Source: Bimastos eiseni (taxonomy: Eukaryota; Annelida; Clitellata; Crassiclitellata; Lumbricidae). From it: 64,000 nt of DNA. Shown in pieces: positions 3,996 to 36,469 of this stretch. How positions within the stretch are numbered: the first letter of the stretch is position 1; each line of letters opens with the position of its first letter. The position numbers and the translations under genes are program-made. The notes beneath the pieces are model-generated. The model had not been told where the DNA came from and searched no databases. It worked only from the letters and a program-made list of their open reading frames with translations. The stretch lies in NCBI GenBank assembly GCA_959347315.1, contig OY365814.1, forward strand, positions 2,903,661 through 2,967,660, read 5' to 3'.

Positions 3996-6900
3996 TTAAC
4001 ACTCAGTTTGTTTTAGAGAATAATGTCCATATGCTAAAGTGTAGATTCCACCTTGCTGAATCACTCGTTTGTCATCTTCCGCTGAGAGAGCCACCTTGTT
4101 AACTTCTTCGGTGTAGATATCGTGAAGGTGGGATCGAATGACATTCATCTTTCTCAATTGGTCTCTCTTGGTGAATAAGCAATCTTTGTAGTCTTCGTGA
4201 GTGATTGATTTCTTGACAACATTCTTCTTCACACCTTTACATTTCTTGTGGTCTAATCCAACCATTTTGTACGAATACAACTTTGATCTTAAACCTACAA
4301 ACTCTTCGATCTGTTTACCAGCAGCTTCATCTTTGAACATACCAATGACCTTTTTATTGATGCCAGTTTCTATACCGGATGGATGGTCTTTAGGGTAACT
4401 GCTAGTGTCGAACCTACTTATAATGTCGGGAGTTATATCGGCGTAGAAGTCTTCGGTCTTAATTTCGTAGGCTAAAGAATCTGCATCTGTAAAGAGTAAC
4501 TTTGCTCTATCCTTATACTTTTTCTTGATGTAATTATAATGAAAATCACACATTATTGTCTTAGTCAAGTCTAAAATACACATTCCAAGATATATGGGCT
4601 TATTGTAAGATAGCTTCGTCCGTTTCATGTGAATGGCAATTAGGTTTTCGTCAAAAATAGTTCGCGTGTTATAATTCGTTCTCGTTGCTAGTTTTATGGC
4701 TTGCTTCTCGCTTGAAACCAGTTTTATATCTACGCGAGACTCTATATTCTCGCAAGTCTTCTCATACCCACTATTGTTCTTTAGTTTGAAAAAGTCTTTC
4801 TCGAAATCGCTGGTGGCTTTCGTCCTCAGGTTGGTATTTTGATCGATATACTTTTTCAGCCAGGCACTTTCTTCAAATTTTATACCACGATGAATTTTGG
4901 TAATCTTCAAGCCTAGGCCTTCATACAGCTTTACATTTTCGTAATGGACTATATATTTTACTTTATCGTTCAAGTTCGGAATGAGTTTAGGTACAGTTGA
5001 AGATTCAGGTGTAAAACTCTCTGGATCAAGAGAATAGTCGTTGTGAAGATCGTGTAAATCTTTCGGATATTCCAAGTCGACTTCTAATATACACGGTATT
5101 GATCTCCAGTCGTTTAGCTCATCATTACCCACCCACTGGAACCCGTGAGTTGGTAGATTCTTACACATTGCCCATCCGTATAGGTTGTTGGCGTCTAAAT
5201 AGGTTATAAATGTTGAAGGCTTGCTATCGTCAAACGCTGGCATGTACTTATGGTTTGCCTGCCCATAACGATGTGAAATGGAGCTAACACCACCCATTAT
5301 CCCGTGTTTAACCATTAGTATCATATCATAATCGCTCAAAAACTATAACTCTACTCCAGTCAACTTTAATGAGGCGTCCCAAGCAAGACCTGGTGAAGCA
5401 TAATACCAGGCGGGATCTAAACCATACTTCTCACAGCACACATCTCTAAAATTTTCAAACACGTCAGCGAGCAGGAGAACATCACTCACATTATATAAAT
5501 CGTGGTATTCTCTAAACGTTTTAAATCCAAATTCATTCCATACCATCTGTGCGTGGTTGTAGTCTTCATAAAAAAATGTCTGAGTCGTTAAGTCTCGAAT
5601 AGAATGCTGACTTTGGTGGTAGTTCTGTTTCATTCAATCGATCGATGGAATTAATAAAATCGTAAGGGTATAAACCTTTTCTAAGCAAGAGATCGAGCTA
5701 ATTGCCAGAGCAGTGCTTGCTTATATTTTTACACTGGTCTTTGCTCAGGTTCCTCGATAAAGCATCGACACTCGATGCCATAAATCTAAAACTATCGATG
5801 AAATGTAATTCACGCTTAACCTCGACTTCCTTATTTTCTTTATTTACAAACTTATCGACTACAACTTCACTGCTAAATGAGATATACTTTTCTTCGTTGC
5901 TAGGGATGCAGTAAATGATTTCGTTATCATCACCTCGTAATTTCTTTACGAATAGATGACTGTCATAACCGGATAAATTATGGAACAATACTGGGAAAAA
6001 CTTGGGAACTTTATAGTTTAGATTACAATTCTTATGAGCGGCCCCTCTATATTTTCCAGTTAAATGGCAATGGTCTCTAACTCGATCTTTACCCAGTTCG
6101 TCTTCGTAAATGTGACAAACAGTAGCGGAATCGTATAGAGCCCGATCTTTCTTTCTGAATAACATTTTCCTTGGAAATTTAAATCGATCATAAATATCTT
6201 TTATATTATCTATAAGAGTGTTTACGAATATCTGAGCTACATCATCGTCTTCGCTCTCCGCTGTGAACGTTACGGGAGCTTGTGAATATAGGTCATCATC
6301 AAAACATTTTATATAATAGCAGAAAGAACTTGGAACGTGTTTTTGATATTTGTTGGTGTAAGACATGCTGGGATCTGGTTGACAAGTGTCTATAGGTTTA
6401 ATGAAACTTTAGAAATCGGCGTACACTACAAATGGGACTCTCATCTTTCTATTAAAAGTTTTAAAACTCAACAAAGTTCCTGGTTCTGGAAGTTCTATCT
6501 TTTGAGCGTCGTGTTGGGAACAGTATTCGGTGTGTTTTTTTAATGAATCGATTCTACTGAATCCTATGAAGCATCTTTTACAATAGTGCATTGAATTAAG
6601 AGATTTTTTCGTTCGGGCAACCATCAGTCTGTTAAAATTCTTTATCCAACAATAGTGTTTCTTTTCTCCATCAGAAATGAGTAAAAGATCTACACACCTA
6701 TCGTTCTCATGCTTTGATAAATATAGTGGGAATAGGTTAACATCTTTCTCATAACCAAAAACATTAATACTAATAGTATTATTTCTCTCAAACTTACTTA
6801 TCACATTAGCATCCGCTGCTACTGGGAATTCGATACCGGACCAATTAAGTTCCTCAGACTGTCTAATTAATTCTTTCGTAATTCTTTCTAAATGGTTGTC

Positions 6901-7499
6901 AACTGGGTTTAAGGCTCTCGTTACACACCACTTGAAACATTCTTCATCTTTGTTCTTCATATTGATTATAGCCTCTTTTCTCGCTAACTTCTTCGGTAGT
7001 GGGATGTAAGAACTACCTTTCAACGGTATATAAACAACGGTGTTGATATCTAATTTTTGAACCGCTCTGAGTCTCCAGTTACTACTACGCATCTGGAAGG
7101 CAGCCATCGACTCAATAATTTTATCTTTCGCGCTGTTGTAAATTTCACTTACATCGGTGTCTAGAATCACCTCAGTCCTTGAAACGAATGGAAAATCTGT
7201 GGAATCTACAGACTTCAAGTCTACCTCCTGTGCTCGAACGGCGTCAAGAAAAGATGTGGCATCAATACCCTTAGCCCCCTCTACCGTGTATTGTTTCGTG
7301 AAGCCTTTGATGGAAATCCTAGAGAAATAATTGTAATGAATAACCATTCAGATAATTTCAATACGAGACCTTCCGATTCAGTTGTCCTCGACATCCCATA
7401 TTTTACACATTCTAAAACTCGTTCTCTTGCATTCGGCAAAGCAGTGATCCTAAAATCATTCCCATTGTAGATTATATCAACACCCAATGCTGCTGTCAT
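3996..7499 (-). pseudogene. Protein-primed family B DNA polymerase (DNA_pol_B_2) of a Polinton/Maverick-like or related element, multiply broken
   Basis: It would have replicated a linear element by protein priming. From N to C: a Cys/His finger (YCKRCF...H...YC); the ExoI context YADF; an HNH-like patch (DHCHLTGKYRGAAHKNC); the ExoII context (NLSGYDSHLFV); an ExoIII-like YNVSD; polymerase motif A (YLDANNLYGWAM); a motif-B region (NNSGYEKTCENI); and motif C with two Asp (FTDADS). The C-terminal end looks natural. Breaks seen: a frame change near 7345; in-frame stops at 6409-6411 (exactly at the ExoI Glu position), 5698-5700 and 5343-5345; and a frame change in an A7 run at 5570-5576. Length (~1150 codons) fits the family. 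The gene is dead. It could come from a Polinton or an adintovirus-like relative; I cannot separate these. Confidence 0.88.
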
Positions 7500-11947: not shown

Positions 11948-11990
11948 ATGAATGAGGTCATAATGTCGCAATCAACTTCGACAGCGAAAG
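11948..11990 (+). CDS. exon 1 of the SH3/CARD/NHL gene (tentative)
   Basis: ATG-initiated frame, M-N-E-V-I-M-S-Q-S-T-S-T-A-K, ending at a GTTGGT donor in phase 1. The true start could be further upstream; chosen because it is the nearest ATG whose donor phase fits the next acceptor. Confidence 0.35.
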
Positions 11991-14900
11991 GTTGGTACTA
12001 TGTGGATTATGATAAATTCATCGTTCCACCGCAATAATCGAGTCCTTCCACAGGACCGATATATCATTAGTAACATCACAAAGTACTTAATTTGTGTCAC
12101 CGTCTTTTGTCATTCAATCCTTCAGCATCGTTCCATCAACATTGTCAGTGAGACGCCTTCTTTACGGTCGTATGGTAGATTTTCGGTAGGCCTACTTGTT
12201 GGACAATGTGCTTCATGACTTGTTTAAAAAATTGAGTCACCAATTGCCTATTGTTGTGCGCAGAAGGAGATACCTGTCGAGAAGATCTGAAAAGAAAACA
12301 TTTTGATGACACTGAACTGAATGATGGATCGTCGAAGAAACAGATCACATCATCAGTAATAGGTACATGTAGGTATCTTCTACATATCGAAAATTACGAT
12401 GATTTTCATAAATAAATCATCTTATTTGAAACTCGGAAGTGCTCTTTAATGGGTTTTGTGCTTGCACATCAGAATACGTCATACTTGTCAGGAATATATT
12501 TAGTACGTGTCATGACGTTCTTTTTGATTTTACAGTCGCAGTCGAAATGAAATTGCGCGCAGTCCAAGACTTTGAACCAAAGCAGATTACACGCCGCGAC
12601 AGAATCCAACTTACGGATATTTTACAAAAGCAAAGACTAGATTTGTATGTGACTGATTCGGATGAAAGCGAGAACTCAGACGACGAAGTGAAGTCAGACG
12701 ATGAGGTGAAATCAGACGATGAAGTGAAGTCAGACGATGTGAAGTCAGACGACGAAATAAAGTCAGACGACGAAGTAAACTCAGACGACGAAGTGATGTC
12801 AGACGACGAAGAGAAGTCAGACGATGAAGTGAAGTCAGACGATGAAGTGAAGTCAGACGATGAAGTGAAGTCAGACGACGAAATAAAGTCAGACGACGAA
12901 GTGAAGTCAGACGATGAAGTGGATCGTTATTCTAAAGCGATTCCGTTTAAAAGAGGAGACACAATGGAGACCATTCCGCCAACAAACATCTGGTAAACTA
13001 TATCCTATGTGGTATACACAATTAATGAGAGTAAAATCAATCAACAATTTGTTAATTCATTAAGAACCCATTCATTGATCGTCTCTAAACGACAACAAAT
13101 AACTACTAAGTGTGGTGGTAAGAATTAAAGCAATAGGCATACATTTCGGCTCATTGTGGAAAAATAATTATTCGTACCATTGTGTTAGGCCTAAAATATA
13201 AAGACATAGGCCCTATATTTGGGGAAATTAGCGAATTGAATTTCGGACAAAATAATGTTCACTTTTAGGATCGAGTCTGTGGTAAAATATTTTTTGAGAT
13301 AAATAAAAATAAGAAAATGCTTTCCGCTGTTTAAATGCATCACGCTTTCTATAAAGAAATTTTGCAGCCACAGCGTTGGATGGTGAAAGATATAGGCTAT
13401 AGAGGCCCTAGGCTTGTTATGTTAACTGCATTAAAGAATTAAAAGTTAGAGGGTTAAATCTTTTTCTCTATGTCTGCTTAAAATCCGAAAACATAATTAA
13501 TATAAATGCTCTGCTCACCATTGTTTCTTAAAGTGACAGCGACGAATGGTGGAAGGTGAGGCATTTAAACAACGGAAAGATTGGTTTCATACCAAGAAAT
13601 CGCGTTGTAATTGGTGAGTGCTAGAAATGTTGTTGCTTTATATATGTAAGAATGCCCCGGATTCCACAAAAATGGCTGTCATATACATTGCATTACACCA
13701 AATGGAAACAGCCAGATATCGAATTTCGCAATCGCTTAATATTTAAAAATTTAAAATAGAACGGATAAGGCAAATGCAAACAGAAAATATTTATGTATCT
13801 ACCGATGCTTCCAAAATACCTAGCCTTTAGGTTACGTAGGTTACATAGGTTCTTGTCAACTTAAAACTGGCATTAATCATCACACCTCTAGAAAACCTAA
13901 TTCCTACGTCCATGCCAATAAATGACTTACCTCAATAAAATGCGAATGACCAGGAACTTTTAGCGCTATATGTAGGCCCTGTGTTCTTTTCATGGAAGTT
14001 GTGCCATTTGTAACTATAAAATTATGTTTATGCTTCGGGCAGATAACTGATCATCAAAAAACTAGAACTAATACCCGATTATTTTCTATCAGAGAACCTG
14101 GGCCTAGAGTATGGAATTTGTTGCCCCATGACCTTCATACAATTGGCTCTCTAATCTCATTTGAAATATCCCAACCTCGATATTTACTTAACTCCAAAAG
14201 CTCATATAGTAACTAACTGTGACGTAATAACTCCTAGTTTGAACATGATTTGATATTTAGTGTATTTCTTCATCTAGTCATTGATATTAGTTTGACTTTA
14301 TGTAGAACCTAAGTTATGTCCTTACTCCTTATCATAATCTTGTCTCCCTCTGTGGTCTTCCTCCGTTATGCGTGTCTGATTTGTAGTCAAGTTTAGTCAA
14401 GATTATCATATTTTACATGATAACAAGGCTTACCTATTACATCATCTTCCTCTAATTATTTATCTATGTGTTTTCATGTATGGTATATAATATGTTTTCT
14501 TTATACTACTTTCCTTTAAAGTTTTTAACCGTCGATCAAATGCTTACAAGATGTAATGCTTATTGGGGTTATTATTATCACGCGGGATATTCTTCTCTTG
14601 GGATCTCTATGTTATCCTTTGTTCATCTGTTAAGATGTGCCATATGTGATACTTATTACTATTGATTTGATGCTTCATGTATGTTTTCGTGATCGTTTAT
14701 TGTGTTTAACCTTATTGGATAACATTAAACTAATAAAACAAATAAATATACATTTATCAAAATCTGTCTCTCGAGTTGGTATAATCTTCATGATCTTACT
14801 CACCAAATAACGACTCAGCGAGAGAACCATTCGCCACATACATGTACGTGTATAAACCTATGATTGAATGCATGCATAATATGTGTGTATGCATTAATTT

Positions 14901-17900
14901 ATAGAACATATTTATAACTATATAATTATATGCTTGCATGCTCTAGCAGACCTATAGACAGACAGATAAGCAGGTGGACACATATTGGGACCCATATTAC
15001 AAGCAGCCAACTTTTCTAAATTACTCAAATCGCATTTGTTTAGATCTGTTGAGTAGCTACGTTTAGCTTCTTATAATGCGTTATATAAATAGCCTGATAC
15101 AATACATACATTGCTAGAGTTATATACAGAAGTCCAGGCATGTATAAAATAGCAACAATCATACGGTACACGATAGATGCAATAGATGCGCACTTACATC
15201 AAACGTACGTACAAACACACATAGCTAATTTATGCATTTCTTTTGTTTTTATTCAAACAGAAAATGATCGACCACCTTCGAAGACAACGGTAGGATTATA
15301 ACCAGTTTTACCGGACTATTCTTAAATAAATAATTATAACTCTTGTATGGAGCATTTTAATGAAATCATCAAATCAAAATTTGATTGAAAATACAGTTTA
15401 TGATTTCATTATCTCTATTTGAATTAATTTATTCACGATAGGGGGTGTTGAAGTTGGAATTGCAAGAAGGAAGGAGGTGGAGAAAGAGAAAGACGAGATG
15501 GAGTTACAGTATACGAGATAGACTAGAGAGAGGAAGTGGAGAATGATGTCGAGGAAGACGAGGACGTGTATACGTGGGAGAAGATGAACAGGAGAGGAGC
15601 AGTAAATGAGAGGTATAGTGGAAGGTGCAATGATATGGTGAGAATAATGGAGGTGCGTTGAGATGGGGAGGATTATATGGAGAGTGTTGTTAGGGAGGCG
15701 AATGAGAGGAATGTGTCAGCTGAAGGCTAAGAAGAGAGAGTCTTAGGTGGACGAAATAGGGGAGTAGGAGTAGGAGGTGGGAATGTCATAGTAGGATATG
15801 GAGGATAGGGAAATAGAATGTTGAGGAAGGGTTGTGGTAGGGAAGCGGGATAAAGGGGAAGTGAGATATGGAGAGAAAAAATGGGTTAGGGAGAGAAATG
15901 GAAAGGGAAGCTACAGGAATGGCAGGATATGGTATTAGGGAAGGAAAGTGTCTATAACTGGCATGGAATGATTGACAGTGTACGTACTATATTGGGCAAC
16001 AAATTTCGCAACTTTTAACCAGAAGCCCCTAGAGCCGCATATTCCTTCAGTTTGGTAAGATTGGCCTATGTAGGGCTACTAAACCATAAATTTCGACAGT
16101 TGTGCGGCACATTATGTAAACCTTTTGATTGTCAAATTCCTGTCGGTTAATATTAACGGGCTATGTTTTCCATCTTTAGTGACGGCGCTGGACTTGAAAA
16201 TTTGGTACACAATAGCGGCAATACGCATATTCCGTACATGATGTTCATTAAAAAATATTGATGATGCTGAATGCGGAGATTCCTGAGCGTTTTCGTTAGA
16301 CATTGTCTATATATAATATCTATTGCAATTTTAAACTGTAATTTAAAAGCAAAATGAAAACAGAACGTTTTTGATCAAGAAATGTTCAATTATCGTCCGC
16401 TATGGAAAGCCGATATTATAATTATATTTACAAATTATTTGGATAAATGTTTCAATTTATTTTATTTTGTTAAAAATTGTTGTTGAAATATTTTTTGGTG
16501 ATTTTTTATCGTCCATTTGATACGCAATTGCCTATTTTGCTTTCATGCAACGTGGCCATTATACATATTAACTGGTGGACTAACCTTTTGATATAAACAT
16601 TAAAGCTTTGATGACCATTGCAAACGCATTGAAACCATTTTTTTCATATTTTGTGATGTTAAGAACTTAGTAATTTGATTTTCAGCTGAATAAAATTCCA
16701 TTGGAGTTGCTGGACATTATCTTAGCAAACTCGTTTCTACACTGGTTACTGACTTTTTCATCAATTCAACGAAACGAAGATTTTATCAAAGATTTGGCAT
16801 CAGTCGACTTCTGTTGGTTTCAACGAATAACAAGACGAAGGTTTAAGAATAGAATTTGGCGACGGATGCAACGTAGGTTATTTTCATTTTTAATTCTCTA
16901 GAGTGAAGCAAAGCTAACTTATATCACAATCATTTGGTTATATGGAGCAATATATGTGATAACTACGTTGACGCAGTAAAATTTAGATCAACTGTATTTT
17001 TTGTCTCAATCAATAATTTTCTAAAACAAAGATTTTCAATACAACTTTTATTATTTATTGCCAATATGAGCAAGAAAACCAACAACCGAAGTATACATTC
17101 TTCTGGCAATATTTTAATGTGTGCAATGCTTCGGAAATGTGCCTATCTAAGCCTACTCTTAAACGACCTCAATTTAAGCGAACTCAACTGAAAAAAATAT
17201 GCGTAAGATTGCTGAGCACCGAACGGGTGTCTTTCACAACCTAGCTCATGACGATTACGGATTGGCGACTGATTTATTTGTGTTGTGTTCATAGTTAGGC
17301 TCTTATAAAATCAGAATCAGCCGACACATGCAGAGGCTTCTCGTTCACATTGACAAGAACTATTTTGCTGCTGAAGGTATAATAATATTTTTAAATAGCC
17401 AATGCAGCCATGTCATTGGTCTTTTAGATTTGCAAATCACAAGGAAATCTGCAATCATTAGGAAAAACCGAAATTATCTAATAGAAAATATTCATCCGAT
17501 CGACGAATTTATTGCTCTGCTGTTGTCTCTAAACTGCATAACTGAGGAGCAAAGTCAATCGATTCAGAGACAACATTCACAACAAGAGAAGAACGCAAAA
17601 CTTGTGATCTATTTGAACGACTTCAGCCAAACTAAATCTTCAAATTTCGTCAAATGTCTGCGAAGAACCAATCAGAAGACAGTGGCCAGGATCGTAGAAA
17701 ATGGAGGAGGTTTAGAGTCAATCTTTAATCCAATGTCTTATGACTGATATGCTTTATTTTACAACTCTAATGATATGACCCTAAATCTTTTCCATGGCTA
17801 ACATTTCCTAATTATTTAAGTCAAGCTTTTTTCAAGATCTCATTGATCCTATCTGTTTAAGTTCTATGCCTCCTTCTAGACCCTAGACCCTGTTCATATA

Positions 17901-20900
17901 TCTGGCCACTTAAATGACATCCAAAATACAGTCGATGTTTAGGCCGCGTGCAGAATTTGACAACAATAACATTAACTTACTTACTTACTTACTGACTGAT
18001 ATTGGACTCTTGTTTAACTAAAAAACTTTGGAAAATAGCGACGCTCGTTTAATATCCACGACGAACTCGAAGCATAAACTGATCGCTTCACGACATTATA
18101 TAAAAAGTAACGACATGTGGCGCTCTATCGTGTACGTAAAAAATGCGATTTTGGCGAAACGGTAAAATCGACCGCAAGTAGTGACGATTCCGAACAGGAA
18201 AACGTCGATCTCGAAGATATCGTGAAGTCGCCAACGGTGAGCGAAACGGGAATAGTTGAAGTATCATCGAAAGAAGAATTGCCCGATTTAATTACATCGA
18301 GCGGAGGCAGTTGCAATGGCAGCGATGACGGACATTTTAGCCGAATATAGATTAAAGTGCGCTAGGAAGGAAAATGAAACTCTGAAAACGATGTTGATAT
18401 GCAGACATTGTCGTTCGCGCGGCGTTGAATCAATGTCTCTGCCTTGCGCTCACATCGTGTGCTGCGAAAATTGCGCTGATATTCTGGACTCGTGTCCTCT
18501 GTGTTCGGAGCGTATATTGGGAACGGTCAGAATTGTGCAATCCGAAGGATTCTTAGGCGCTTTACTGACTCCGGTGCTTTGGCTCATCGGCTCTCTTCTG
18601 ATACCAAAACTCATGCCTCAAAATGGATAGCGTCATGAATTACTAGAAGAAAATGGCTTTGGTGGGACCGCGACGGATTGAAAAGTATAAGGAAACCATG
18701 TTGGATAAGTCTCTGTCAAAGTTGGACGGATATATGTACGAGATCTTACACAGAAACGTGGCCGAAGACGGAGAAGCCAAACACTATTCCAACAGTCTAA
18801 GACACTACTTGAACATCGATAAGCCCGAAGTCGTTACAAAATGTAACTCCGAAGAGTCCAAAAATGTTGAAGAAGAAATGAAAGTCGAGGATACCCCGCC
18901 GTGATCGACCGACATAGAAGCTTTGTACTTGACAGCGTTCCGAAAAAGTGGAAATCTCAGGTTTCGCGTCTTTTGACTCATATCAAAAAACAATCCAGAA
19001 TTCGGATGGAGCGAAATAGGAGAACTCGTTTTGAAGAATACGACTTTTCCTAAAACGCACGTCGTCGATTTGGTCAAAGATCTGAAAAGAAAAAGAACTT
19101 TGGCGCGCGTGAACAACGGATGGAGACGTCTGGCCGACGCTTTAAAAGATCAGAACATAACTCACGAGTTAATCGGGAAGGAAGACAGATGGAACTATAT
19201 TAACGTATCGTCGAACTCTGCCGAGTCAGTTACTCCGATCACCGTACGAAGATCGACCGTGTCGTCGAGCGGACGCAAAAAGCAGCAAAAGATGTGGGCT
19301 CTCTACTGATGGAGTCGTATTTCGATCCGAAGCATCCGGCCAGTTTCTAAAGATTTGAAAACTTGGTTATCGGATTAAAACGCCTATGTTTTGCATAAAC
19401 CCGTCAGATTAAAATTTAGACGTAGAAAAATTTTCGCCATAGGCATAGACGATTTGTGGCAGGCCGATTTGGCCGACGTTTCTTGTGTTTCAAAATATAA
19501 CGACAAAAATAAATATCTGTTAAAACTCGCGAACGAGGTAAAAGTTGGAATATTTCGTAAAGTGGAAAGGTTACGACAACAGTTTTAATTCTTGAACTTT
19601 TGATATATTTGATACTTAAACGTCTTTCGCTTCAGATCGATCGCGCATACGGTTGGTATATGATGGTTCACTTTTATCTCAGGTTACCGAGCAACAGCTT
19701 CGAGAGCTGTTATCCGGATAATTAGATCACGCGATTTGGGAAGTCGGTTTGGTCGAAATGCTTTACGTTCGCAGTTGGAATAATTATTCAGAGGGAAAGG
19801 TAGAGTTCAGTATTCTTAATCCGACGTTCAAAACATCAGCAGATTTACGTACAACACACTATACGTCTCCCGGTCGGATACTACGAATCGCCTTCCAACA
19901 TTATGCATTACATAAATTATCATATACAAGAATTTGCGAAAAAGTCGGAACTCAAAGACTTTCCGACCTTTAATTATAACGTCGTAACTAAACGCTTCCA
20001 CGGAGAAATAGGCGAGGGCGCGAGTCTGATATTTTCACCGCCTCTGTGTTCTATGTTGGGCATCGAGTCGCGGCAGAATCCTATAAAACATTTCAAGGAC
20101 GAGTCATTAAGTTTTAGATCGGGTAGCGCGTGCGATGTAAATCGAGGTTTTAATTTCCTTTTCGTCTACTGCAACGTGTTGGAACACGTTATGGTCGGAG
20201 CTCCCAAACTTCCTCTGCTTCGTATCGTACCGAGTTCTGGAAGAAACGGCGATATCGCCCATACCACGTACGAAAAGCCTTAATACGCACCCTTACAGCA
20301 GAAACATTTCGATTCTATCGAGACAGATATAAGGAACGACTTCGGTCTACCCATACCATTCGAGTCCGGGAAAGTGTTGATAACGCTTCATTTCAGATTG
20401 CGCAAAATCCCTTATCTATCACAATGAAAAGACAATTATGTTGCGCGAGTCGCTTCGCTTACGAAGACTATTATTCTCAACAGAGAAAAGCGGAATGCCC
20501 GTTTTCCAAGGCTCGCGCGGACACGGACTGGGAAGCATTCTCAGCGGATTCTTCAGAAGCGCCTGGCCTTTAATTCAAACCGGAGCTAAAGCCTTCGGAA
20601 AACAATTCTTGAGAACTGGTTTGCAAATAGCCAGCGACGTTGCGGATGAGTAAAATTTCAATGAGTCTAGCAAAGCTGGTATTCCGGCCGGTATAAAAGT
20701 GTTTGCGTCGACCAACCATTTCAATAATCAAAGCGGTAGCCGCGGTAAGAGACGCAAGAAATCCTTAAAGAGATTGAATAAAAAGCTCGATATATTTGAC
20801 GAGGAATAATGGCCTTCGTTCATTCGCAGTCTTGCGAATGCACCAAAAGTGAATTGGATCTCTTGTCGAACCTCCGACGCAGACCAGCATAGAAAGCGGG

Positions 20901-23900
20901 ACTTTTGTGGAATATAATCCAATTTCGACAATTTCAATGACATAGATGCAGGCGATCACGTTGGACCCATCAACCTGTTTCTACACAGTCTGTTTTCGGA
21001 AGTCGACATTACCTTAAACGATACTCTCATCACGAATTCGAACAATACTTACGCTTACCGAAGTTAATTGGCGACGATTCTGAGCTACGGATCCACGATC
21101 AAAAATGCTCAACTCACATGGGTGTTGTATTACAAAGACTTGGCCAGAAATCTGGAAAATGCTAATCCGCACGACGACACCGCTCTAAACTCTGGATTTA
21201 AGAAATAAAGCGTTTTGACCAAAGAAGGTAAAGTCGTGGACATGTCGGGATGCATTCGCGGCGACCTGTTCTTCCAAGGTCGATTCCTTCCTAACGACGT
21301 TAATATGAAGGTGCGACTCGTCAGCAATAAAGATCCATTCTGTCTGATGTCATTCATTAATGACGCTACGTTTCAAGTACAAATCTTTTATCGAAAACTA
21401 TACGTGAGAAAAAGTGAAATTCAATCCTTCTGTATTTGTGGCGCAGGCCAACGCTTTGAAAAGACGGAACGTGAAATTTCCGATCTGTAGAGCCGAATGC
21501 AAAGCATTTACCGTGCCAGCCGGAAATTTAGACGCCACTCAAGAAAGTCTTTTCTCCGGTCAATAGCCTACCAGAATAGTCAGCGGATGCGTGGACAATG
21601 ACGCGTTTAACGGAAACTACAAGAAGAATCCATTCAACTTTAAGCACATGAATCTGACTCAGCTTAAAGTGTACCTGGATGGTCAGCGACAATTCGTGAA
21701 TCTCTCGAAGTCAACTTTGCCAATAAGCAGTTTATTATCGCTTACGTCACGCTACTCATGGGAACCGGAAAGTGGCTGCGAGACGAGGGAAACGAAATTA
21801 GCAGAGAAGACTTTTCTGGCCGATACGCTCTCTACGCCTTCGTTCTGACTCCGGACCTCTGCGAGGGCGATCATTTCAATTTGATTAAACGCGGAAATGT
21901 TCGACTGAATATGAAATTTTCGCAAGCTTTGGACAACACGATAAGCGTCACAGCCTTCGCCGAGTTTGAAAGCTTCTTGGATATTGACAGATCCAGGAAC
22001 GTAGTCTTCGATTACAAAAACTGAAAATGGACGGATCCAGGATTAGAACGTTAATTCGACGCGGATACTGGACTTCACGATTATTTGGTTCATAATTATG
22101 TGTGTAAGACGTTCGCCAAATAAATTTATGGAAAGGTTTCCGTCATTCTTTGAAAGCAAAGGAGTTAGAAATTGCCCGAGCGCATCGCGATATTATATTT
22201 ACGCCTGGGATGAGAATTGGGTTTCCTGTTGCAACAGATGTTGGCTTTATTACCTTTCACCACGTTCGGCGAAATATTCCCACGAGAATCATAAACACGT
22301 TTGGCCGAGCCTTTGATGAGCGTGCCGCCCCAGGCCTCATGGAGAGGGTAAAGGGCCCCATGGAGGGGTAAAGGGCCCCATGGAGGGGTAAAGGGCCCCA
22401 TGGAGAGGGTAAAGGGCCAGCCGCCGCCGCCAATGGCTGAACCGTAAACCTACGATTGACGGTGTGCATGTGTCTTTGTATGTGTGTATATGCGTGCGTG
22501 TCTGTATCCATGTCATCGTGTGTGTGCGTGTCATCGTATGTGTGTATGTATGTATGCGTGTCTGTGTCTTTACATGTGTGCGTGTATTTGTGCGTGTCTG
22601 TGTGCGTGTATGTGTGCGTGTTTGTGTGCGTATGTGTCTTTGCATGTGTCCGTGTCAGTGTACTTGTGTATATATGTGTGCGTGTCTGTGTATGTGTCCT
22701 TGTATGTGTGCGTATGCTTAGATATACGTGCGCGTGGAGTCCAGCCAATGGGAGGACGCGGTTGCCTCTTGCCCTAGCCAATGAGAGGGCGAGATAATCC
22801 ATTAAAATGATTGACACCCGATGGCGCCTGGCTCATGAATATTAATTTGGTCCCCCAGCGACCAATCGGTGAACGAGAATAGAAATTAAGGGCTGGAGGA
22901 CGTCGAAAGGGGCTGTAGCACTCCCCTCTGATGGTAAACGGCCCTATTAACCAATACTTATCTTACAGCTCTTGAGTAATTAGTTTTGTTTCAAATGGTC
23001 ACTACAGGTTTCAAATACCCGATGATCTAAGTTTTGCGAGATTTTGGCTCCATTTGAACGTTATGATTGCCCTTACCTACACGAGGAGAGGAGGTATGCT
23101 CTCTTTCTCTGCATCCTTCCGGAGGCACCTGAAGGCCTTTCTGTACTCCTTTTGGATGTGTCCGGAGTAAGACACGCCTCTGATCTTGAGTGGCGCTATA
23201 CGAGTGCTCCGTTACAATTACAATTACAATTGCAATGCCACAAGCTAAGGAAACGAAAGTTTCTAAAGCTTCATAACCATGGCAGAATAATGCGATGCAA
23301 TATCATCGACTTTGAGAAACCTTGTCTGCAAATTAGACAACAGCCAACAAAAATGTGCACATTTACAAAAAAAAGAACAATAATAATGTATTATTATTTG
23401 AATACCATGCTTAGTTTTGAAATCGACAGATAATTTCTGATTGAGTGAATTGAAATATATCGTGGAATGAGCAATGATACACATATCTAAGAATTTCCGA
23501 TCTTTCAATTCTGAACGATTACATTCCAATCGATTTAATTAAACTTTTATTGTGGACATCATCGTCATCGTCAGTTCCTGACGCCAACCATTATGCTACG
23601 ACGACTACGATCAAAATATCTTCATTGTCCTCGATCAATTATCAGATCCGTTGTTTCCATAGTAATGTTAACATGTGTTCATTTATATTTTGCATATCCA
23701 GCGTATTCCTCGTCCATCTTTGCTTTCTTTCCTTCGATTTTTGCATATATGGTGTATTTTTATGAAATTCAGAAACAAAACTGACATTTAAATATATTAA
23801 TTTCGATTTTTAGTCGTAATAAAAGTTGAAGTACAATATCGTGATGCAAAGTGTACAACTCGACAATTTCACGACAAATTTGAAAATCTTCGAAGCAGAA

Positions 23901-26900
23901 CGATGCCAAGGTCACATAAAACTGAAAAAGTCATCAGTCAACTGAAAGATGAAGGCGTAGAAATCATCAACTCTCAACTGGACAGACAGACTGTGGTCGT
24001 TTGGATCTGGTGTCATTCACAAGCAGCACTTGAATATATTCAAAGGCAATACGAATCGAATAAACTGACAGATATATTACACGGTCTTACAGATATTCGA
24101 CGATCAGCCTCTGAAATAAGCCAATCAGCTGTGATCAACATTGATCGCACTGAGATCAAGAAAACAGTTGGTAGGTTATCATCAAAATATATTCAAAAGA
24201 AGTTAAAATATGGACAACACTTGAATCTTAGATGAAAGAATTCGTCAGAATGGCGCTGGTTAAAATGTTGAATCTGAAGAAACGGATCTATCTTTTTAAA
24301 ATAGAAAGTCGATGCAGCAAACAGGAATAGGCCCATAATATTATTTAGAATCTGTCGCTAGTGATGCTTGCGTTCGTCTCCTGTAACCATAAAATTTATA
24401 TGACGGTCAATTTTAATCCTCAGACCGTGTGCAGCTTTCCAGCCTCATTCCTTCTTTCATTCCTTTACATAATCGATGTCAAATCGATCTAATTCATCCT
24501 TTCTTCCTATTCTCATGCCTTTACTCCAGTTCAATTGAAAATGTGAGATTTAGCTTATTACTGTAAAATCAACGGAGTAACTTCTATGACACTTTCACAT
24601 CTTTTGCCTAATTTCATTTTCATCTTCACGTTTTTTGCATAATTCCTCCCTCCTTCTATTTATCTGTCCTCTTTCTTTGATTCACACTTCCTTTCCATCC
24701 ATTTCTACTAAGAAATGACTTATTTCAGTATCAAATCTGTAAAATATCATTCGGAATTCATCTTACAACCATCCTTCCATAATTCCATCCTTCCAGTTCC
24801 ATGCCAAACCGATGATAGTCCATCATTATGATTAAAGTCGATTTATAGAGTGCTCCTTCAAGGCTACTACTCAGGAGCGTTCCCGACCCCGCCATGGTTA
24901 AAAAGAACAGTTTTAAGGCGAGTATAAAATGAGTCTGAGTGGACCCTTGGCGACAACCGCAACGCCAACGGGAGCGTATACTCAAGTTGAGTAACAGAGA
25001 TCGCGAAGATAGGCAGAGGCGAGACCTAGCAAGGACCGTCATACTATAAAGAGATGATATGGCATGACAGTCGCTGTAGGAGGGAGAGCAACGCCAACGG
25101 GAGCGTGTTCCAGAGCTACGTGTAACCACTGAGAAGGTACGATAATGTTTAGTAGTTGTACATGCGAAAGGGACAATGAGCAGGTCTCGCTCAGTAGAGC
25201 GGAGAGAGCGGCGACCAGGTATACTCGAAGTAGAGTAACAGAGATCGCTAAGATAGACAGAGGCGAGACCTAGCAAGGACTGCCATACCAAAGAGATGAT
25301 ACTGTTCGAGACTCGCTGTTGGAGGGGGAGCCAATGGAGCACATCCAACATACATGGTAGGTGTAGGTGGCGCTTCGGCGTGTGTATACCAGCTCAACTC
25401 GGTCGTAACATTATCGTTGACTGCTCTGTTCGACCGAGGTTGAGCTGGGATCGATTCTGAGTAGGCAAACTTGGCGTGATATAAAATTACTGTGATAATA
25501 ATAACAATATAGCCGGAGACATCGTCAAATTTGGGAATGCGTCAGACAAGACGTGCAGCAGAACGCAGGACCCTCTCCAGGCACCGCAACCGCCCAGCTG
25601 GAAGGCCTGCATAGAGTGGGCAACAGTAATCCAGTCGGGCAGTAATGAAGGCGTGAACAAGGGTAGCTGTGGCGTCTGGAGTTAGCGAGAGGGAAACAGA
25701 TCGAAGCTGACGTAACTGGTAGTATGAATCGTGGCAAAGACGGTGAATATGAGAAGCAAAGTATATGTGGTCGGCTAAGACGGACGCGGGGCGGAAAACA
25801 GAAGGTACGAGCGGCCCCTGGAGGTATCGAGTCCTCTGAAACAAGATACAGCTACTCGCGAGGACAGCAAGTATAAAGATATTATTTTAATCAAGAGAAT
25901 GACATGACGCTTAGCCGTCCTTAGCGTATATTTTATGATAAGAGCAAAAATGAAATAGAAAGTAATAGATCGATGAACTACATTTATAAGTTGCCAAAAT
26001 GCCAAATGCGCTTCTGATTATGGAAACTAACGTAAATGAGAGCATAATAATAATCCAGTCTTAATTGGTTTAAGTAAATTTATCATCTGAATGAACAAAC
26101 AGTTGCCAAAGTTTGCCTGCATTCTAATTGCCTAATTAAAATAATAAAAAATTAACAAAGAAGTAAATATTACTGTTTTGTTCAAAACCTCTTCTCACTT
26201 TACAATAATATAACTATCATTTATAGCGCGACTGAGTTCGAGTTTATAAGTTCTCAGGCTATAGCTGTTGGTTTAAAACCTGTATTATAAACCTTTTCTT
26301 TATAAGTTCTCAGGCAGAGCTGTTGGTCTAAAACCTGTATTATAGAGCTATCTTTATAAGTTCTCAGGCTTAACTGTTGGCAGAGGTGTAATAAGATTTT
26401 GGAAAAAATGGGGGGCATAATTTAAAAAATAGTGCGCGAAGCGAAAAAAATTTTTGGCCCCCCCCCCACTTTTGAATTTTGCCCAGAGAAACTTGAAAAA
26501 CGGGGGCACAATTTATCTTAACAAAAGTCATCTTAAGAAGCAAATATTAAACAATGGGATTTTGTCACTAAAATTAGTAGTTAATTGTAATAAAATATTT
26601 TAAATATATTAACTAGTGAAGATAACTATAACTGCAATGAATAAACAGTAATTGATTTCTATTTTAGTCCTGTGTTCGATTTTCGTCAGCTCAACTGAGA
26701 GAATTGAGGTAAAGAAAAACAAAGATGAATTGTTGAGAATATATGGAGTGACTAAACTGCGAAATGAAATCTACGTCTTGTGTCTGTCTTTTTTTACTTT
26801 GGAATCTGGTGTAATTCGTGTGTTTGAGGATCGAAATCCATTTCGTCTTCAGAGAGAATTCAATATAAAAGAGATCACTTTTCCAAGTGACATCGCATCC

Positions 26901-27692
26901 AGTGAGAAAGAAAATTGTCTTTACGTCATAGACTCATACTGCGTCTGGAAGATTACAAGAGAAATGGATGACCAACGCAAAATCATCAAATGGCTGACCA
27001 CTGGTTATGCGCTAAAGAATGCTCTCTCAGTGTCCAGTGACGGTCAGTTATTGCTGTTGAACTATTCATCGCTAAATCTGATGATCTACGGATCAGATGC
27101 AAAACTTCTTCGATCGATTTCGTTACCAACAGACATTGAAGACCCAATTCATGCCGTGGAAACATCCATCGGGAATTTCATCATCATTCACTGGTCAAAT
27201 GAGAGAAAGTCGATCGATGTGGAACAAGAAGAAGAGGAGATGGAGGAGGAGGAGGAGGAGGAGGAAGAGGATGAGGAAGAAGAAGAAGAGGAGGAGGAGG
27301 CGGAGGAAATAGAAAAACTGGAGAAGATGAGAGAGCGTGGGTCACGCGGAAGCAAAAGGGACAAAAAATTGTGTGTAAGTGAGTTGAGCAGCGATGGAAA
27401 GATGATCGTCCGTCGTTTTATTCCTTCAAATGAAACACAGCAACTGAATGACCCTGAATACCTCTCACTCGATTCAGACGATAGAGTGTTTGTGGCTGAC
27501 TATATAAATCATAGAGTGATTATCTTGGATTCCGATCTCCAATGGAATCGAATTCTTTATTCAAAGGAAAAGGAAGACGAACCTGCGATCAGCGGTCCTT
27601 GGAGATTGTGCTACGACGAAGAACAGAAGCAACTGATCGTTGCAGGATTATCATCGGGAGTAATTAATGTTTACACGTTCAGTCAAGCATAA
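11948..27692 (+). CDS. Nine-exon gene: SH3 (with acidic repeat insert) - F-box-like - CARD - TRADD-N-like - NHL propeller protein
   Basis: Proposed join: 11948-11990, 12264-12362 (or 12368), 12536-12992, 13540-13613, 15261-15289, 16686-16872, 17428-17709, 23814-24170, 26668-27692. Every acceptor ends in AG, every donor starts with GT, and phases agree at all eight junctions. The total is 2553 nt, giving 850 aa (852 with the other exon 2 donor). CARD and TRADD-N-like domains bind partners in apoptosis and innate immunity; SH3 and NHL are interaction modules; F-boxes recruit ubiquitin ligases. A cytosolic signalling adaptor is inferred. Exons 1, 2 and 5 rest on splice sites and phase alone; exons 3, 4 and 6-9 also have domain similarity. 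The 6.1-kb intron 7 carries a dead Polinton module. An alternative is two adjacent genes, but phase agreement argues for one. Confidence 0.65.
12264..12362 (+). CDS. exon 2 of the SH3/CARD/NHL gene (tentative)
   Basis: Acceptor GTGCGCAG, then an open phase-1 frame (EGDTCREDLKRKHFDDTELN...) to a donor at 12363 (GTACAT) or, slightly better by consensus, 12369 (GTAGGT). Both leave phase 1. No domain recognised; hydrophilic. Confidence 0.4.
12536..12992 (+). CDS. exon 3: first part of the SH3-like domain with SDDEVK repeat insert
   Basis: Acceptor TTTTACAG, phase 1; donor GTAAAC at 12993, phase 2. It begins MKLRAVQDFEPKQ, which resembles the first SH3 strand (ALYDYE-type). About 14 tandem hexapeptides SDDEVK (18-nt unit, 12676-12921; one unit lacks Glu) follow. 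The exon then resumes with AIPFKRGDTMETIPPTN, which fits the SH3 strand after the RT loop. Each SDDE is a casein-kinase-2-type site. If the donor is skipped, translation stops at TAA 12994-12996 and the SH3 is incomplete. Confidence 0.6.
13540..13613 (+). CDS. exon 4: second part of the SH3-like domain
   Basis: Acceptor AAGTGACAG, donor GTGAGT at 13614 (strong consensus). The 24 codons read DEWWKVRHLNNGKIGFIPRN then RVVI. This is the classic SH3 C-terminal half: the WW of the specificity surface, a G-x-x-G-[FY]-I-P turn and the final strand. Entry phase 2 and exit phase 1 match exons 3 and 5. Confidence 0.75.
13992..14760 (+). mobile_element. LINE 3' end inside intron 4
   Basis: The frame TRLFSIREPGPRVWNLLPHD and the following IGSLISFEIS-PRYLL resemble the C-terminal motif of LINE ORF2 proteins (FSIR..GP.IWN.LP..L...SL..FK). 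After its stop comes a long AT-rich 3' tail ending in AATAAAACAAATAAATA. A weaker relative of the same tail may lie at 39318-39533 on the - strand. Confidence 0.5.
14761..15260. other. intron 4 spacer, AT-rich
   Basis: No gene or known element recognised. Short runs of dinucleotide-like TATATAAT and TGCATGCA sequence only. Confidence 0.4.
15261..15289 (+). CDS. exon 5 (micro-exon) of the SH3/CARD/NHL gene
   Basis: Acceptor TTATTCAAACAG preceded by a T-rich tract, donor GTAGGA. 29 nt, phase 1 in and phase 0 out, encoding (E)NDRPPSKTT. It is the only candidate found that converts the phase-1 exit of exon 4 to the phase-0 entry of exon 6. Confidence 0.45.
15430..15960 (+). repeat. ~530-bp polypurine (GA-rich) tract in intron 5
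   Basis: The + strand is overwhelmingly A and G (for example GAAGGAAGGAGGTGGAGAAA), with no simple fixed unit. Such strand-asymmetric tracts can form triplex DNA. No coding potential. Confidence 0.8.
16110..16548 (-). mobile_element. Copy of the TAGCGGCG-type DNA transposon family (5' part)
   Basis: Read on the - strand, 16548 to about 16304 matches 36225-36330 and 35890-36143, including TTTCCATAGCGG, a CTGTTTTCATTTT block and the start of a short reading frame. The frame here begins MSNENAQESPHSAS (16303 downwards); the other copy begins MSDENSPQSPPSA. It lies in intron 5 of the CARD gene. The product (63 codons) is unrecognised. Confidence 0.6.
16686..16872 (+). CDS. exon 6: F-box-like segment
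   Basis: Acceptor TTGATTTTCAG, phase 0; donor GTAGGT, phase 1. The 62 codons start LNKIPLELLDIILANSFLHW, continue with LASVDFCWFQRITRR, and end in a basic RIWRRMQRR. The IP-x-ELL-x-x-IL start and the L-A-S-V-x-x-x-W-F centre fit the F-box pattern, which binds Skp1 in SCF ubiquitin ligases. The match is by eye and moderate; a different helical domain is possible. Confidence 0.55.
17428..17709 (+). CDS. exon 7: CARD (caspase recruitment domain)
   Basis: Acceptor GGTCTTTTAG, donor GTTTAG at 17710, phase 1 at both ends. The domain runs from IIRKNRNYLIEN through IDEFIALLLSLNCITEEQS and ERNAKL-like QEKNAKLVIYLNDF to FVKCLRRTNQKTVARIVE. This is the helix order of a CARD: H1 R.N...L...I, H2 L...L...G.LT..., H4 ...L...L, H5 F...LR.T.Q..LA..., H6. 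A CARD recruits partners by CARD-CARD contacts in inflammasome- or apoptosome-like assemblies. The phase 1-1 exon makes it a shuffling cassette. The alternative reading without splicing ends at a stop at 17745-17747. Confidence 0.78.
17748..18090. other. start of intron 7, no gene
   Basis: T/C-rich intronic DNA with a short ACTTACTTACTTACTGACTG run near 17975-17997. Nothing else recognised. Confidence 0.4.
18097..18106 (+). promoter_or_regulatory. TATA-like box before the first gene of the viral module
   Basis: TATATAAAAA lies about 20 bp before the first codon of the RING-protein frame and just downstream of AT-poor sequence. It is probably a relic promoter. Confidence 0.35.
18117..18630 (+). 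pseudogene. RING-finger protein with C-terminal membrane segment (IAP-type RING), probably split by a frameshift
   Basis: The first frame (18117-18350) gives an acidic N-terminus (SSDDSEQENVDLEDI). The second (18316-18630, with its own ATG) gives ICRHC...LPCAHIVCCENC...SCPLC, a C3HC4 RING with the short spacing of IAP-family RINGs, and ends with a hydrophobic segment GALLTPVLWLIGSLLIPKLM (~residues 80-99). RING proteins act as E3 ubiquitin ligases; membrane anchoring is inferred. The two frames overlap by 35 nt in different registers, so either one gene has a frameshift or two cistrons overlap. The RING half itself is intact. Confidence 0.65.
18653..19309 (+). pseudogene. Conserved accessory protein of the element, function unknown, broken
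   Basis: The N-terminal part (18653-18904) is intact: MALVGPRRIEKYKETMLDKS and a helical, acidic continuation. After stops and a frame change it resumes at about 19019-19309 with FPKTHVVDLVKDLKRKR, GWRRLADALKDQNI and a basic, Ser-rich tail. This kind of small protein recurs beside integrase and capsid genes of such elements, but I know no function. Its final TGA (19307-19309) overlaps the next ATG (19309-19311). Confidence 0.45.
19309..19620 (+). pseudogene. Retroviral-type integrase (rve) with chromodomain tail; catalytic core deleted
   Basis: The family inserts the element into host DNA. The gene starts MESYFDPKHPASF, then an in-frame TAA. After further stops it reads LHKPVRLKFRRRK and GIDDLWQADLADVS, which carries the first catalytic Asp context of the DDE core. 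The frame passes abruptly from LLKLANEV to YFVKWKGYDNSFNS, the hallmark of a C-terminal chromodomain. About 150 codons holding the second Asp and the Glu are missing, so the gene is internally deleted as well as stop-ridden. It overlaps the preceding cistron at TGATG. Confidence 0.7.
19663..20427 (+). pseudogene. Penton-like (minor capsid) protein, broken
   Basis: The start at 19663 (MVHFYLRLPSNSF) is followed by an in-frame TAG at 19723-19725, a frame change into WEVGLVEMLYVRSWNN, another frame change near 19890, then a long open stretch (VTKRFHGEIGEGASL, CSMLGIESRQN, VYCNVLEHVMVG, PLLRIVPSSG). An in-frame TAA at 20281-20283 precedes YAPLQQKHFDSIETDIRNDF and the end. The N-terminal WEVGL-E block and C-terminal D-x-I-E-T-D-I-R block are typical of the single-jelly-roll penton-like proteins of these elements. 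Its TGA overlaps the next ATG (ATGA, 20424-20427). Confidence 0.65.
20424..20809 (+). pseudogene. Small Gly-rich/basic virion-associated protein of the element, broken
   Basis: It begins MKRQLCC... and YYSQQRKAE, then a frame change leads to a Gly-rich and hydrophobic central stretch GHGLGSILSGFFRSAWPLI and GKQFLRTGLQIASDVAD. After a TAA (20651-20653) the remaining frames give a Lys/Arg-rich end and DIFDEE. Proteins of this size and composition sit between penton and major capsid genes in such elements and are thought to be core or minor capsid proteins. Its TAA shares an A with the next ATG (TAATG, 20807-20811). Confidence 0.5.
20809..22024 (+). pseudogene. Major-capsid-like protein (double jelly-roll type; resembles animal genes annotated 'F54H12.2-like'), broken
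   Basis: The start MAFVHSQSCECTKSELDLLS is followed by frame changes and stops through about 21215. Long open pieces follow: 21215-21490 (VVDMSGCIRGDLFFQGRFL, DVNMKVRLVSNKDPFCLMSF), 21591-21848 (VDNDAFNGNYKKNPFNFKHM, LTQLKVYLDGQ), and 21758-22024 (EDFSGRYALYAFVLTPDLCEG, ending FDYKN). Total span is about 405 codons. The family makes the capsid shell; assignment to the double-jelly-roll fold is from family knowledge, not from this sequence alone. At least four lesions are visible. Confidence 0.62.
22027..22140 (+). pseudogene. Possible start of an adenain-like (C5) cysteine protease, truncated
   Basis: ATG 22027 lies 3 nt after the capsid stop and opens MDGSRIRTLIRRGYWTSR, followed in shifting frames by a F-G-x-x-x-C-like block. 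Maturation proteases often follow capsid genes in these elements, and the N-terminal pattern fits. No catalytic residues remain visible, so this is tentative. Confidence 0.3.
22337..22418 (+). repeat. 20-bp minisatellite, 4 copies
   Basis: Unit CCATGGAGGGGTAAAGGGCC, repeated four times with one A insertion variant, directly left of a TG array. Confidence 0.85.
22429..22730 (+). repeat. Imperfect TG-rich array, left arm of an inverted repeat pair
   Basis: Interrupted (TG)n with TGTGTCTTTG-type variants, preceded by a 34-bp unique segment (22429-22462). That segment has an inverted copy with two mismatches at 28500-28533, next to a CA array on this strand. The pair therefore forms 5.7-kb-spaced inverted arms around the last two exons of the CARD/NHL gene. 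Cys-rich frames here are artefacts of the repeat. Confidence 0.8.
22743..22900 (+). promoter_or_regulatory. Cluster of CCAAT boxes
   Basis: AGCCAATGGG, AGCCAATGAG and GACCAATCGG occur within about 130 bp, with a fourth CCAAT at 22429. This spacing resembles NF-Y-bound promoters, but no gene start is tied to it, so it may be part of the repeat. Confidence 0.25.
22901..23813. other. distal part of intron 7
   Basis: No gene recognised. An ATTACAATTACAATTACAAT-like run occurs near 23215-23230. The sequence ends in an A/T-rich acceptor region (TTTCGATTTTTAG). Confidence 0.4.
23814..24170 (+). CDS. exon 8: TRADD-N-like domain
   Basis: Acceptor TTCGATTTTTAG, donor GTAGGT at 24171, phase 1 at both ends. 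It encodes VIKVEVQYRDAKCTTRQFHD, then EKVISQLKDEGVEIINSQLD, VVVWIWCHSQAALEYIQRQY and ESNKLTDILHGL, ending IDRTEIKKTV. The beta-alpha pattern, with a hydrophobic strand followed by S-x-x-ALE-x-x-x-x-x-YESNKL, matches the TRADD-like N-terminal family found in many invertebrate CARD/death-domain proteins. It would mediate binding in signalling complexes. The unspliced frame runs only to a stop at 24233-24235. Confidence 0.65.
24171..24770. other. intron 8, first part
   Basis: T/C-rich intronic sequence, no element recognised. Confidence 0.4.
24770..25850 (-). mobile_element. LINE 3' end with internal tandem duplication
   Basis: The - strand encodes RT C-terminal blocks: LSLTPDATATLVHAFITARL-DYC, LERVLRSAARLV, MLDVLHWLPLQQRV, GLASVYLSDLCYST and GRRSLRSTERDLLIVPFACT. 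Frames change several times. A segment of about 240 bp is duplicated: GAGTAACAGAGATCGC...CAAGGAC occurs near 24985-25050 and again near 25220-25285. It lies antisense in intron 8 of the CARD/NHL gene. CR1/L2-like clade is likely but not proved. Confidence 0.8.
25851..26242. other. AT-rich intron 8 spacer
   Basis: Nothing recognised. Confidence 0.4.
26243..26381 (+). repeat. ~55-bp minisatellite, 2.5 copies
   Basis: TTTATAAGTTCTCAGGC starts copies at 26243, 26299 and 26353, each with GCTGTTGGT and TAAAACCTGTATTATA in the complete units. Confidence 0.85.
26395..26515 (+). repeat. Low-complexity dispersed-repeat-like segment
   Basis: TGGGGGGCATAATTTAAAAA, GTGCGCGAAGCGAAAAAAAT and a C-run look like the end of a dispersed element; family unknown. 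It is 150 bp before the NHL exon. Confidence 0.35.
26668..27692 (+). CDS. exon 9: NHL-type beta-propeller, last exon
   Basis: Acceptor TTCTATTTTAG, phase 1; stop TAA 27690-27692. The 340 codons form repeated blades: YGVTKLRNEIYVLCL, FPSDIASSEKENCLYVID, SVSSDGQLLLLNY, and at the end LSLDSDDRVFVADYINHRVI and LCYDEEQKQLIVAGLSSGVI. The NHL signature D..-RV.V.D..N.RV is clear in the penultimate blade. A run of about 30 nearly pure Glu residues (27223-27312), followed by a basic linker, interrupts the propeller as a long surface loop. NHL propellers bind RNA or protein. An ATG at 26652 would start it inside the acceptor, so splicing is preferred. Confidence 0.75.
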
Positions 27693-35275: not shown

Positions 35276-36469
35276 TACTGGAGCACGCGCGTTTTGATTT
35301 GTAAAAAAACTTGAAACTATAATAGTAGAAACTAGAAAAAGTGAAGGAATAATAGTTGCAATCTTATGCATTATCCTTAAGGTGAAAGGATCTGGCAGAA
35401 ACGTTGCAATTTTTTTATAATTATTACAATACATCGATGCAAATAAAACTTTATGCCTCTCCATTCTCCCACGATGAATCAAAATGCTCCTTCATGGAAT
35501 AAATAATATCCAATCCATACACTAATACAACCACTGAGAAGGCACGATTTTATTCTGTGGCTGTGCATGTAAATAGGACGAAGACTACAGGCCTCGCTCA
35601 GTAAAGCGGAGAGAGCGGCGACCCGGTGCACTATGAGTAGAGTAACAGAGGTCACGAAGATAGGCAGAGGTGAGTAGCGGCGCTGTATGGGCACAAAATA
35701 CGCAATTGCGTCCCAAAAATAGAAAAAAATGAACAAAAAATATTTCAACACACATTATAACGAAGCAAAAGAAATTAAAATATATAACCAAATAATTTGT
35801 AAATAATCTGGATGTGCTCATGCAGATTGAAATTTTCTACTTCGTCAGAACATTACTTAGTAGGCTTACTTACGGTGAATTGATATTTTCCAGACTCGGA
35901 ATAGCTAATATTAACGGCTTTCCATAGCGGGCGATAATCTAACATTTCCTGTTTAAACACGTTCTGTTTTCATTTTGGTTTCAAATTACAGTTTAAAATG
36001 GTAAATTTGTTTTCAGATTATATATTGAATTTTGTGAACCCGTTAGGTATAGTTGTGCTGATATTTTACGTTCGCGTTGCTGAAGTTTAGTAGGGCCTAC
36101 TGGAGTTTACAAGTATTAAAGTTAGACGTAGGTCTAGACAATGTCCGACGAAAACTCTCCGCAATCTCCGCCTTCAGCATTACAGAAACGACGGAGAGTT
36201 CAAATGACAATGTAGATAGTGGCGGCGCTGAATGAAGCAAAGTACGCAACTGCGTACAAAATAAGATAAAAAATCACCAATAATATTTGAACAACAATTT
36301 TTAACGAAAAAAAATACATTAAAATATTTAACCAAATAATATGTAAATAGAATGAAATTTTCAACTTCATCAGAACATACTTACTGAGTTGGCCTACTTA
36401 TGATGTTTTGATGTTTTAAAGACTCAGAATAACTATTGTAACGGTTTAGGGGTACGCTTACCTAGTGTC

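Follow-up and report, generated by a model that had tools for sequence, protein, structure and literature searches.

A stretch of 64,000 nucleotides (nt) from the lumbricid annelid Bimastos eiseni (assembly GCA_959347315.1, contig OY365814.1, positions 2,903,661 to 2,967,660 of the forward strand), here called the window and numbered from its first letter, contains a chain of nine putative exons. Most likely, this chain encodes one protein, from one gene, in which an SH3 domain, a CARD, a TRADD-N-like domain and an NHL propeller are combined. Modules of this sort are commonly met in the signalling of cell death and immunity. An original prediction, made by eye from the letters of the sequence, had joined five interaction modules at this locus, the fifth being F-box-like. 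When profile searches were run on the individual exons, the SH3 domain, the CARD and the NHL propeller scored above their curated Pfam cut-offs, whereas the TRADD-N and F-box profiles did not; the TRADD-N-like module is retained by its fold, and the F-box is not retained.

The gene model

The chain was rebuilt from the sequence on the plus strand and consists of nine exons and eight introns, every intron having GT-AG borders (Table 1). The exons add up to 2559 nt, i.e., 852 amino acids and a stop codon. The reading frame is kept over all eight junctions and the only stop is the terminal one, so that the agreeing phases and the divisibility by three that had been claimed for the chain are borne out. 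Homologues of exons 6, 7, 8 and 9 are present in public protein sets, and it is a guess that these are paralogues of one lineage. Exons 1, 2 and 5 were placed from their borders and phase, which leaves the true start uncertain; the start codon in exon 1 is a guess, as this exon has neither a homologue nor a recognizable domain. A six-frame search of the window did not reveal a second copy of the gene, and an NCBIfam scan of four open reading frames (ORFs) gave nothing over cut-off.

Table 1. Exons of the predicted gene and the tandem repeat in exon 3, with positions in the window.
Feature	Position	Strand	Content
Exon 1	11948..11990	+	Proposed start codon plus 14 codons; no domain; GT donor, phase fits exon 2
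Exon 2	12264..12362	+	Polar linker; placed from AG/GT borders and phase only
Exon 3	12536..12992	+	SH3 strand 1 (MKLRAVQDFEPKQ), long acidic insert, middle part of SH3
Tandem repeat	12672..12921	+	18-nt unit, 14.1 copies, coding SDDEVK (Tandem Repeats Finder)
Exon 4	13534..13613	+	C-terminal half of SH3; SH3_1 23.0 bits alone
Exon 5	15261..15289	+	29-nt linker micro-exon, ENDRPPSKTT; placed from AG/GT borders and phase only
Exon 6	16686..16872	+	Conserved 62-aa exon; F-box-like by eye, unconfirmed
Exon 7	17428..17709	+	CARD; PF00619 1.2e-6, 28.8 bits
Exon 8	23814..24170	+	TRADD-N-like alpha/beta domain; 32 homologues, AlphaFold, Foldseek
Exon 9	26668..27692	+	Terminal exon; NHL beta-propeller, PF01436 3.7e-7

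Domains of the predicted protein

The SH3 domain is divided over two exons and is additionally interrupted within the first of these. Exon 4 by itself already passes the SH3_1 cut-off in Pfam, while neither the whole of exon 3 nor its end gives an SH3 match alone. The score rises to 25.9 bits when the end of exon 3 is joined to exon 4. The 3/4 splice thus improves the domain and does not create it. An SH3 domain of NCK2 was matched across the 3/4 junction (E=8.9e-7), with the first SH3 strand still missing from the match. This strand, MKLRAVQDFEPKQ, sits in exon 3 upstream of the acidic insert. Placing the 13-mer directly in front of the remainder gave 28.6 bits for SH3_1, 28.4 for SH3_2 and 24.6 for SH3_9, compared to 25.2–25.6, 21.8–22.9 and 18.0–19.1 bits, respectively, for eight control pieces from neighbouring sequence (cut-offs 22.9, 21.8 and 30 bits, so that SH3_9 stays below). 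Since the upstream strand raises the scores, the SDDEVK minisatellite is taken to be part of an insert that interrupts the SH3 RT loop. With this insert omitted, the predicted SH3 domain is confirmed at the curated cut-offs of both SH3_1 and SH3_2.

The CARD call likewise holds, as the 28.8 bits of the exon 7 ORF and the 25.3 bits found within the full model both exceed the cut-off of 23.9. A query made up of exon 6 plus part of exon 7 retrieved nine proteins among 38 candidates scored. Eight of these match the CARD part (P0035–P0042), six of the eight having a precomputed CARD label, and the three that were scanned contain the domain at 33.9, 34.0 and 27.4 bits.

The exon 8 domain, lying between the CARD and the propeller, has 32 homologues in a protein search. 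Its AlphaFold model has a predicted local distance difference test (pLDDT) score of 77.3 and shows the RRM-like two-layer alpha/beta fold of the TRADD-N superfamily. In a Foldseek comparison with the PDB, the two best matches, with modest scores, are TRADD-N structures (1f3v and 1f2h), which align structurally with 7–14% identity. A VWIWC core that is common to all 33 rows of the TRADD-N-like alignment is intact here. By its predicted fold only, exon 8 may therefore be called TRADD-N-like.

The NHL call is borne out by a single repeat in exon 9 (30.3 bits, cut-off 20). Six blades can be counted by eye. The propeller contains an acidic insert at about 27221–27310. With this insert removed, the PDB search is led by the designed ‘Pizza’ proteins (8.2e-11), which we take to be NHL-type propellers, followed by matches to TRIM2 over residues 183–241 (7.8e-9) and to Brat over residues 8–151 (7.8e-5) of the insert-free exon. 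As these last two lie in different parts of the exon, both parts are propeller-like. A protein search whose query words came from a stretch containing the acidic run, and in which 7985 candidates were scored, gave at least one relative for exon 9, P0001 (43% identity, 45% query coverage). P0001 exceeds the exon 9 ORF by 156 residues, and one mid-propeller stretch of 202 columns, about four extra blades by eye, has no counterpart in exon 9. Residues 64–159 of the window propeller match P0001 repeatedly, within 1–154, 191–263 and 260–500, which fits copied blade units, although BLAST of P0001 against itself did not report an internal repeat.

Exon 6 is conserved, with a homologue, P0034, that is 63% identical. 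The F-box identity proposed for this exon found no support in the searches, and the claim that the protein recruits a ligase had no other basis. The Pfam F-box profile matched neither exon 6 nor P0034 with E up to 10, nor did it match versions from which the middle loop had been removed (two real and eight shuffled pieces). A PDB profile search returned only a portal protein, mostly over an intron-derived part of the query, and the AlphaFold model, built from two sequences, has a pLDDT of 57.5, a confidence too low for the model to be of use.

One gene or several

That the exons are joined into a single transcript is inferred from where translation could begin. Neither the TRADD-N-like exon nor the NHL exon has an in-frame ATG upstream in its open frame, and the first internal ATGs, at 23903 in exon 8 and 26964 in exon 9, both come after the start of the domain. 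As there is no usable start in either, both must be spliced from upstream coding exons. The CARD exon also lacks an internal ATG. The predicted donor of exon 8 is conserved, and the likeness between the homologues ends just beyond it: 28 rows have a letter at residue 127, but only 12 at residue 128. The residues directly past the donor are Gly in 28 of 29 homologues and Lys in 29 of 29, which, judged from the protein letters, would fit a GTAAG donor.

Several observations weigh against a single gene of this kind, some concerning the structure of the gene and others the identity of its domains. The open frame of the CARD reaches into predicted intron 6, where an ATG at 17328 may serve as a translation start. 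Past the donor of exon 7, the likeness between homologues fades more slowly than past exon 8, with Lys in seven of eight, followed by Asn, Lys and Leu in four of seven each. Intron 7 spans 6.1 kb, within which lie further ORFs as well as 11 AATAAA/ATTAAA hexamers. In the full-length model, which retains the insert, SH3_1 reaches 20.1 bits and is under its cut-off. The best single-sequence match of the CARD exon in the PDB is a designed protein (E=0.017), caspase CARDs ranking next with weak E values of 0.3–0.7, and a profile of the CARD alignment found no CARD chain among its two PDB matches with E up to 1, a profile that may have been weakened by the inclusion of P0034, a non-CARD row. For exon 8, no Foldseek match has an E value below 0.001, and the top Z score of the structural alignment, 6.5, belongs to an unrelated ferredoxin-like chain. 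Only one of 33 members matched TRADD-like_N (PF20694), with E=0.11 and thus below the cut-off, while weak Pfam matches were commoner for Sigma70_r1_1 (19/33) and for Anoctamin_N (11/33), the latter being an alpha-beta plait. A PDB sequence profile of the TRADD-N-like alignment found only an unrelated isomerase (E=1.3). Finally, the turn between strands b2 and b3, placed by the strands of the AlphaFold model, is Gln-Thr here (Gln in 28 and Thr in 31 of 33 rows), without Ser at either place, so that the Ser proposed as a switch is absent. The TRADD-N superfamily has in this turn a tiny residue followed by Ser, which is occasionally replaced by Cys (Kaur et al., 2021; PMC8195603). For this reason the domain is filed as TRADD-N-like: the predicted fold agrees with the earlier call, but the Pfam cut-off and the Ser motif do not.

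Intron 7 is long and contains the RING and other ORFs as well as poly(A)-type hexamers, which would allow exon 7 and exon 8 to be parts of two neighbouring genes that encode separate adaptors: an SH3-exon 6-CARD protein from exons 1–7 and a TRADD-N-NHL protein from exons 8 and 9, with an unseen 5′ exon in the region 17.7–23.8 kb. The homologues found, moreover, are ORFs of a single exon each, in which a joining of exons 7 and 8 would not be visible. On the other hand, the TRADD-N-like exon, lacking an in-frame ATG ahead of its first strand, needs a coding exon upstream, the CARD ORF extends only a few codons past the GT donor, where homologue likeness is lost, be it gradually, and the phases of the two exons agree, although this would happen one time in three by chance. 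The order of a death-fold followed by TRADD-N is also the usual one in the published proteins, as far as the main text of that work describes them (Kaur et al., 2021; PMC8195603). The hexamers themselves are uninformative, since they are common throughout the region: intron 7 has its first at 18351, intron 8 has six, and 16 are found upstream of exon 7, counted from the end of exon 1. A hexamer of this type past the final stop therefore lends no support. Taken together, two separate genes are considered rather unlikely.

Less probable still is that the chain represents a once functional copy from a multigene family, now in decay or rearranged, invaded by low-complexity and mobile DNA and perhaps not transcribed any more. 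The minisatellite within the SH3 domain, the acidic run within the propeller, the ORFs of apparent mobile-element origin, judged by eye, in introns 7 and 8, and the 156 residues by which the propeller ORF falls short of P0001 would all suit such a copy. Decay is nevertheless difficult to reconcile with 2559 nt free of stops and frameshifts, with 16 of 16 intact splice borders and with the preserved VWIWC core. The presence of a RING ORF between exons 7 and 8 (18292–18627, plus strand; PF13920, 7.3e-9, 35.7 bits, cut-off 27) raises the option of a TRIM-NHL-type E3 ligase into which this RING is spliced. Within intron 7, however, the RING ORF is provided with ATGs and a stop codon of its own, its neighbours look like mobile-element genes, and the spliced 852-aa model lacks both B-box and RING with E up to 0.05. 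As the ORF starts and stops on its own, the TRIM-type option was set aside as very improbable. One protein from one gene, with one transcript joining all nine exons, thus remains the preferred model.

Other features of the window

The ORFs beside the RING ORF, up to about 22.4 kb, resemble virion genes of Maverick/Polinton elements. On the left-hand side of the window, ORFs at 3996–7347 (minus strand) resemble a protein-primed DNA polymerase B of the Maverick/Polinton type, and an Endonuclease_7 match slightly under cut-off (2.1e-4) lies in 5701–6408 (minus strand). Searches with two of the intron 7 ORFs, with the left-hand ORF 3999–5342 (minus strand), with P0001 and with the TRADD-N-like alignment found no relatives in viral contigs; the TRADD-N-like alignment had no relatives in genome contigs either. 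A transposase ORF at 516–1442 (minus strand) matches DDE_Tnp_1_7 (7.8e-16) and is assumed to be of the piggyBac type. ORFs at 25542–25886 (minus strand, in intron 8) and 49102–49758 (plus strand) share by eye a retrotransposon-like tail. Four pairs of inverted repeats of 50–100 nt connect 16323–16510 with 35735–36367, being 70–87% complementary and about 19.2–19.8 kb apart. They might represent copies of a single mobile element, with one copy located in intron 5. Further downstream, two ORFs on the plus strand at 42317–42886 and 61406–61873 match the start (1.4e-14) and the end (3.1e-23) of the amiloride-sensitive sodium channel (ASC) profile, respectively, and are perhaps exons of one gene.

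Relation to known proteins

The TRADD N-terminal domain provides the best Foldseek match for the fold of exon 8, although TRADD itself has a C-terminal death domain and lacks a CARD, an SH3 domain and an NHL propeller. With TRIM2, TRIM71 and Brat, the TRIM-NHL proteins, the predicted protein has in common a C-terminal NHL propeller that is recognizably similar in sequence, whereas the model contains death-fold and TRADD-N-like domains instead of a RING or B-box. Its CARD is shared with CARD proteins of the caspase-9 type, but neither a caspase nor a NACHT domain was found in the model.

Closer parallels come from the TRADD-N proteins, a proposed arm of marine-invertebrate immunity that was defined by sequence analysis (Kaur et al., 2021; PMC8195603). 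These proteins combine a death-fold domain, one TRADD-N domain and variable parts, including propellers. The main text of this eLife paper names a sponge SH3 domain C-terminal to TRADD-N, DED as the usual death-fold domain, WD40 and unspecified propellers, and fusions to TRIM ligases. Especially the proteins of the DEDD2 and NCOA6 clades are similar to the predicted protein, as their death-fold is directly followed by one TRADD-N-type domain and some have a beta-propeller. They form multi-copy families, in some of which SH3 and TRIM ligase domains occur. Compared to what is described there, the predicted B. eiseni protein carries a CARD in place of the usual DED, an NHL instead of a WD40 propeller and an N-terminal instead of a C-terminal SH3 domain; in addition, it contains the conserved exon 6, and Thr stands where Ser is conserved. 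Neither NHL nor F-box occurs as a term in the main text, to which this comparison extends, and the same architecture may be present in the source data. Among the other open-licence PMC papers listed by literature searches, judged by title and the start of the abstract, the domain combination was not encountered. The gene therefore looks like a close relation of the TRADD-N proteins of Kaur et al. (2021), with a domain combination that differs from those named in the main text.

Proposed function

The predicted protein could act as an intracellular adaptor or sensor of the class that combines a death-fold, TRADD-N and a beta-propeller, encoded by a single gene, to which a probability of roughly 0.6 is assigned. 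The C-terminal NHL propeller would bind a ligand. The single TRADD-N-like domain, located between the CARD and the propeller, would be the switch that keeps both sides inactive as long as no ligand is bound. This step follows the published proposal, in which TRADD-N holds adjacent domains in check up to the moment when an invader is detected and the Ser residue serves as the switch (Kaur et al., 2021; PMC8195603). Once released, the CARD would cluster with other CARD proteins, in line with CARD biology, and thereby lead to a caspase or NF-kB type of response. At the N-terminus, the SH3 domain that is split by the acidic repeat would dock proline-rich partners, and the conserved domain of exon 6 may provide a further partner site. 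The idea of a hub in death or immune signalling, as put forward originally, hence has a precedent in the TRADD-N class as presented in the main text of that paper, but without its ligase-recruiting part.

More tentatively, the gene may belong to an undescribed, lineage-specific family of SH3/exon 6-CARD-TRADD-N-like-NHL receptors that forms a germline-diversified set of intracellular sensors. In such a family, the VWIWC core would be fixed while the propeller gains and loses blade units, and the acidic minisatellite in the SH3 RT loop would, through its variable length, tune the binding of partners. A copy with a CARD and an NHL propeller would widen the range of sensor and signalling ends that are joined to the TRADD-N switch domain. 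Its relatives constitute a family in which sensor diversification could be measured, and the SH3 domain that is interrupted by a coding minisatellite offers a clean system in which to ask if SH3 binding is tuned by acidic repeats.
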